Below, piece by piece: positions 36,361 through 36,671 of a stretch of 64,000 nt of DNA (the stretch's first letter is position 1; the number at the start of each line of letters is the position of its first letter). The DNA is from an uncultured Clostridia bacterium (GTDB lineage: Bacteria > Bacillota > Clostridia > Oscillospirales > Acutalibacteraceae). The notes under the pieces were generated by a model. That model searched no databases. It was given only the letters and a program-made list of their open reading frames with translations, and was not told where the DNA came from. The stretch covers positions 62,001-126,000 of the forward strand of contig CAMJJL010000001.1 in NCBI GenBank assembly GCA_946406145.1, given 5' to 3'. Both the position numbers and the translations under genes were made by a program.

Positions 36361-36567
36361 AAAAAATGCGTACAGCACGAAGCCATACGCATAAAAACAC
36401 CTTTGCTCCGTGATGTCGCCAAACATTTAACTAAAACACAAATAGACATATCTATGCCACTATGGGAAAGTTAATAGGAGCATAGTGTTTTTGTAGAAAC
36501 ACTATACCCATATTGGTAAAGATATATCCTTATTATTTGTATTTAATTTTAGTTAAATGTTGGCATC
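36361..36567 (-). ncRNA. candidate rod-shaped structured RNA (or attenuator leader)
   Basis: Promoter TTGAAA-18-TATTAT (plus 36571-36600), about 155-nt imperfect hairpin, then intrinsic terminator ATGCGTA..TACGCAT TTTTTATTTT. Confidence 0.6.
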
Positions 36568-36671
36568 TACATAATAACATAGAGCAACTATACTTTTCAA
36601 GAGGATAAAAAAAGAAATCTCCCGATAAATGGAGTTAAACCATCATCGGGAGAGGTATCTATTATTCTGTT

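Follow-up and report, generated by a model that had tools for sequence, protein, structure and literature searches.

The window analysed here is a stretch of 64,000 nt from an uncultured Clostridia bacterium, in which a promoter, a long rod-shaped hairpin and a terminator follow one another in that order on the minus strand (36600–36361), upstream of a gene for a secreted dockerin protein. The question raised by this locus is whether such a cassette makes an RNA with a role of its own or controls the gene behind it. An earlier note on the same DNA had described these parts, and they were found again: the promoter by a scan, with 10 of 12 consensus matches and a TG 5′ of the −10 box; the intrinsic terminator with its T-run, also by scan; the rod arms (36418–36436 with 36547–36564, plus the inner ones) as pairs of the minimum free energy (MFE) structure; and the secreted dockerin gene by its Pfam match and signal peptide. 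Since promoter-like matches are common by chance in an AT-rich stretch (12 found by the scan versus 17.8 expected, that is, no more than chance), the cassette promoter is made credible only by its relatives, in which its position with respect to the rod is conserved; the predicted transcript start lies at about 36564. The fold is far more stable than expected, with an MFE of −73.1 kcal/mol for 36570–36361 (210 nt) against −39.6 ± 3.9 kcal/mol for dinucleotide shuffles (z = −8.6; 0 of 200), and −81.8 kcal/mol for the full 240 nt (z = −8.1 versus shuffles). Moreover, three things absent from the earlier note were found, namely an alternative pairing in which the apical 3′ arm (36492–36477) binds the tail (36409–36393), an anti-terminator formed by 36420–36405 and 36383–36368 (duplex of −19.8 kcal/mol), and ten or more paralogous copies. 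The apical 3′ arm (element 2) thus has two alternative partners, element 1 and the tail, and the 3′ strand of the anti-terminator is made up of the terminator loop and 3′ arm. The start codon of the dockerin gene is located 19 nt past the end of the covariance model described below. On the other side of the cassette, a second terminator-like hairpin (CTCTCCCGATGATGG..CGGGAGA, then a T-rich run; 36601–36650, minus strand) ends the preceding gene (36672–37199) directly before the cassette promoter, insulating the cassette.

Table 1. Parts of the cassette, the gene behind it and genes of the surrounding integrative element, in positions of the window.
Feature	Position	Strand	Evidence or remark
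Cassette promoter TTGAAA-18-TATTAT, extended TG before −10	36571–36600	−	Scan; fixed place in family
Rod 5′ base arm (GCCAACATTTAACTAAAA)	36547–36564	−	Fold; base5–base3 cis vs. permuted z = −24.5
Apical hairpin 5′ arm (element 1)	36496–36505	−	Fold; apical5–apical3 z = −11.6
Apical hairpin 3′ arm and conserved GCUC loop (AAAAACACTATGCTCC, element 2)	36477–36492	−	Sequence; apical3–tail z = −5.3, held-out z = −7.1
Rod 3′ base arm (TTTTAGTTAAATGTTTGGC)	36418–36436	−	Fold; covariation in held-out alignment A5
Anti-terminator 5′ strand GGCGACATCACGGAGC, including shared GGAGC	36405–36420	−	Linker–terminator 3′ arm z = −10.4; pair counts 86%
Tail GGAGCAAAGGTGTTTTT (element 3)	36393–36409	−	Pseudoknot partner of element 2; apical3–tail permutation tests
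Intrinsic terminator stem-loop, then T-run	36366–36392	−	Scan; terminator pair counts 94.8%
RBS of the putatively regulated gene (AGGGGG)	36350–36355	−	Sequence
Putatively regulated gene, 294-aa secreted protein with signal peptide and C-terminal type I dockerin	35457–36341	−	Pfam PF00404, E = 4e−5
Tyrosine integrase	49530–50873		On integrative element
Resolvase	42938–43735		On integrative element
ArdC-like anti-restriction protein	38863–39708		On integrative element
DnaG-like primase	47621–49219		On integrative element

The cassette lies on an integrative element of about 20.5 kb (30538–51010), located at the 3′ end of tRNA-Ser(GGA) (50988–51077), whose 3′-terminal sequence TGGCGTAGAGTGAGGGATTTGAA is repeated at 30538–30560. 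Besides the genes listed in Table 1, this element carries a 966-aa ORF (32036–34936, plus strand) with no Pfam or NCBIfam match. The location on a mobile element given in the earlier note is therefore correct for the window copy; it does not extend to the family, whose copies occur in many genera of the class, while the viral contigs, phages and plasmids searched with a pattern and one query gave no match. A phage- or plasmid-borne RNA was rejected on that basis, and the family is not mainly mobile, even if this copy rides on the tRNA-Ser element.

A DNA search of 148 related genomes gave matches in 28 of them (window's own included) that were best from the rod 3′ base to the terminator. The aligned homologues shared a −10 box followed by NNGCCAACAA..., a rod whose length varies, an apical hairpin AGUGUUUUU/AAAAACACU with GCUC after it, and a 3′ part UUGUUUGGCGACAAU-CGGAGC-UAUGUGUUUUU leading into the terminator. 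A covariance model (R1) was used for the genome counts. The DNA search had seen only the window copy in the window's genome, while the model found 11, so that a one-off reading of the locus does not survive at least 10 further copies in the same genome. The RNA was present in 110 of 150 genomes of the genus sample (at least 16 copies in some of them), 87 of 251 genomes of the family sample (54 genera), 35 of 119 of the order sample and 66 of 246 of the class sample (44 genera). Among the 250 genomes of the phylum sample, which doubled as the false-positive control of the model, the only positive was the window's own genome, with none in the other classes sampled. Furthermore, matches to the core pattern in named records came mostly from rumen and gut MAGs of Ruminococcaceae, Oscillospiraceae and Clostridia, the basis on which the sampled class is taken as Clostridia.

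The Rfam comparison proposed in the earlier note gave no family at threshold for the cassette RNA, the best weak match being the purine riboswitch (26.9 bits against a cut-off of 37), with many non-standard pairs; a T-box leader was discarded too, as no Rfam model of it matched. A description of the RNA was found neither in Rfam nor in the open-access PMC literature searched. In a human-microbiome survey reporting 508 candidate structured RNAs directly upstream of genes (PMC8040213), the text, as far as available, describes neither the cassette RNA nor secreted targets, and the RNA may be one of its numbered candidates, unnamed. The earlier note had also been reminded of 6S RNA (RF00013), and a bubble-containing rod of about 180–200 nt, flanked by a promoter and a terminator of its own, does recall it. 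The likeness is superficial, however: the covariance model of 6S does not match, the RNA is multicopy and coupled to the gene downstream, and the regular 6S RNA of this genome lies elsewhere (G000:C1:42008–42197).

Copies varied little at the promoter: 127 of 136 had the motif TTGnnn-TAnnnT at a constant distance from the rod, compared to 8.5% of shuffled sequences. The spacer was mostly 17 nt, an extended TGn was present in 106 copies, and the promoter ended a near-constant 4 nt before model position 1, which would place the transcript start at the first rod base pair. At the other end, 96 of 118 copies had an RBS-preceded ORF no more than 320 nt beyond the terminator; the median distance from the end of the model to the start codon was 27 nt (up to 60 nt in 74 of the 96), a gap leaving little room for a second promoter. 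No such ORF was found within that distance in the remaining 22 copies, 13 of which had enough sequence for it. By a simple and crude hydrophobicity rule, a signal-peptide-like start was present in 76 of the 96 downstream ORFs (79%) versus 61 of 278 background ORFs of the same loci (22%; Fisher P = 3e−23), around 20% of the downstream genes being not exported. Among 76 downstream proteins searched against Pfam, BspA-type LRR (26) and type I dockerin (13) were found, along with ricin-type lectin, List-Bact repeats and others; the targets included lipoprotein genes and showed no metabolic theme in their Pfam families.

Because the order promoter–rod–terminator–RBS–gene is conserved, a second promoter has little room and the genes behind are so often exported, the RNA is read as acting in cis. 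The cassette is very probably one member of a conserved family of cis-acting leaders that control genes for secreted and surface proteins by transcription attenuation. Of the two options in the earlier note, the leader was thus retained, whereas the ncRNA of a mobile element was given up, with copies widespread and tied to the downstream gene. This type of leader occurs in one quarter of the sampled Clostridia genomes, with many copies per genome.

Four pairings are possible in these leaders: (i) the apical hairpin, between its 5′ arm and AAAAACAC; (ii) a pseudoknot between the apical 3′ arm with GCUC and the tail GGAGC..GUGUUUUU; (iii) the anti-terminator, between the linker GGCGACA..GGAGC and the terminator loop plus 3′ arm (GCUUCGG..UGU.CGC); and (iv) the terminator. 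Each pairing was tested on 75 non-redundant copies by setting the duplex energy of the cis partners against that obtained with partners permuted between copies (2000 permutations), a test that does not remove relatedness between copies. The resulting z-scores were −24.5 (rod base), −11.6 (apical), −5.3 (apical 3′ arm–tail), −10.4 (anti-terminator) and −13.0 (terminator); none of the 2000 permutations matched any of these five pairings, and five control segment pairs stayed at |z| ≤ 2.2. In the 3′-end alignment (A4), 94.8% of the cells were paired for the terminator and 86% held a standard pair for the anti-terminator, whose covariation was above all 500 shuffles and all slides; a linker one base longer also tended to go with a longer terminator loop. 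The covariation among homologues suggested as a check in the earlier note was observed in pair counts and permutation tests. RNAalifold on the first MAFFT alignment recovered the base and the terminator only, since the rod interior varies in length.

The cassette layout was kept in a held-out set of 40 members from other families and orders. There, the apical 3′ arm–tail pairing gave z = −7.1 (e.g. AAAAACGCGUGCUUC with GAAGC-UUCGCGUUUUU in L208) and the anti-terminator z = −4.0, although part of this signal is due to relatedness, as two control pairs reached −2.4 and −3.1. The held-out alignment was 89.5% paired, with 16 of 26 pairs changed on both sides, figures that lean towards the model structure to which the alignment was fitted. 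The tail is almost constant in the main subtype, where the apical 3′ arm–tail pairing shows no excess (z = −1.2), so the covariation support for this pairing rests on divergent members. Even within the window's own genome, two copies (L035 and L037) had GCG and GCA tails, each with a matching apical arm. Under constrained folding of the 75 copies, the anti-terminator fold was less stable than the terminator fold by a median of 2.0 kcal/mol; without constraint, the MFE structure contained the terminator in 42 copies and the anti-terminator in 32. Such nearly isoenergetic folds suit a switch.

The compensatory changes bear on a reading of the cassette as a MITE-like element, a mobile palindrome in the DNA that supplies a promoter and a terminator at each landing site. 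Being a rod-like palindrome, multicopy and tandem in places, with the window copy on an integrative element, it would fit such a repeat, and the earlier note had named it as an alternative should homologues lack the flanking promoter and terminator. Speaking against this are changes that preserve RNA pairings, a single orientation towards the RBS at fixed spacing, and copies so diverged that only the model, not the DNA search, finds a second one in the genome. Competing alternative pairings, moreover, are not a property of palindromes, and the repeat is a highly improbable explanation.

The evidence was also weighed for a free-standing, multicopy sRNA acting in trans, either 6S-like or by base pairing, with the terminated RNA of about 200 nt as its product and a place upstream of genes owed to chance. 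A fixed promoter, a strong terminator, a very stable rod, the four tandem copies of L121 and the GCUC/GGAGC sequence common to most paralogues would all be expected of it. Yet the short gap to the next RBS leaves hardly any space for a promoter of the gene, the genes behind are biased towards export, a separate 6S RNA exists in the genome, and a competition between terminator and anti-terminator would be of no use to a plain sRNA. The tails are also compensated copy by copy; since those of the same genome differ and each is matched to its own apical arm, cross-regulation among paralogues is unlikely, and trans cross-talk was rejected. A trans-acting sRNA is accordingly an improbable reading.

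As a cis-acting attenuation leader, the cassette has an intrinsic terminator between the promoter and the first gene, near the RBS, and a conserved anti-terminator mutually exclusive with it, for which the signal is weaker in the held-out set. Pairing (i) is incompatible with (ii), (ii) with (iii) through GGAGC, and (iii) with (iv), which gives the logic of a four-element attenuator. RNA polymerase would start at the rod base, and the nascent RNA would follow a chain of mutually exclusive pairings, 1:2 (apical), 2:3 (pseudoknot), 3:4 (anti-terminator) and 4 (terminator). With the apical hairpin intact, GGAGC would remain free, the anti-terminator would form and the polymerase would continue into the gene; with the apical 5′ arm displaced by the tail, GGAGC would be locked, the terminator would form and transcription would stop. 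Judging from the sequence, then, the cassette is presumably transcribed, read-through would be the route by which the gene is expressed, and the switch would run in this ON/OFF direction. Some signal may act on the apical hairpin/GCUC region, and the gene would be switched on by anything that stabilises that hairpin or masks the GCUC loop. The anti-terminator engages the loop and 3′ arm of the terminator, where the 5′ arm would be usual, and so must act while the terminator hairpin forms. Series of up to four successive copies, all with their own terminators, are odd and sit badly with a simple attenuator.

A strict riboswitch would be a sub-case of this leader, in which the apical/GCUC domain binds a small molecule and shifts the balance of folds. 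The regulon-like spread of one RNA architecture over many genes and a terminator/anti-terminator platform like that of riboswitches are consistent with it, but a rod length ranging from 129 to 263 nt across the family, conserved unpaired sequence amounting to little beyond GCUC(U), and targets lacking a metabolic theme make this sub-case unlikely.

Compared to known systems, terminator/anti-terminator leaders likewise have a chain of alternative pairings and many genes under one leader type, and in the trp-type chain, T-box leaders and transcriptional riboswitches an exclusive terminator/anti-terminator likewise stands just before the RBS. The cassette differs from known attenuation leaders in having no Rfam match and no recognised tRNA-binding or leader-peptide element, in the anti-terminator pairing with the terminator loop and 3′ arm, in a promoter within the conserved unit and in targets that are exported proteins and not metabolic ones. 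An SD-like GGAG followed by AUG or GUG was found in the tail of many copies, and 85 of 136 leaders held some SD-preceded ORF of at least 6 codons; a leader peptide was nevertheless discarded, as no reading frame was kept in the alignment, the T-run and terminator lengths differing between copies. LoaP- and EAR-type antitermination leaders are alike in being structured leader RNAs that let the polymerase pass terminators in Bacillota. LoaP as a required partner and a CsrA-controlled leader (GGA motif) were both rejected in the class sample, where LoaP scored over the family threshold in 0 of 66 RNA-positive versus 41 of 180 other genomes and CsrA was present in 0 of 66 versus 85 of 180, with lineage as a confounder that accounts for much of such exclusions. 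The RNA and CsrA were mutually exclusive among these 246 genomes, which may reflect lineage or a loss of CsrA and flagella in carriers.

A regulatory RNA with ten or more copies per genome in many gut Clostridia appears to be unnamed, both in Rfam and in the open literature covered. There is perhaps an even chance that it represents a new class of RNA switch, a portable promoter–leader–terminator cassette through which many gut Clostridia would globally regulate their exported and surface proteome, with termination decided, in response to a signal, by toehold-like strand exchange of the GGAGC tail on the GCUC loop. As the RNA precedes adhesin-like LRR, dockerin and lectin genes, it would give a handle on the control of surface and secreted proteins by rumen and gut bacteria, and the alternative pairings (terminator loop GCUUCGUG) are explicit enough for immediate in vitro testing. 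Regarding the arrangement of copies, the RNA occurred four times in tandem before one gene at L121:886–1668 (minus strand), every copy having a promoter and a terminator of its own, and paired copies occurred in L030, L098 and L128.
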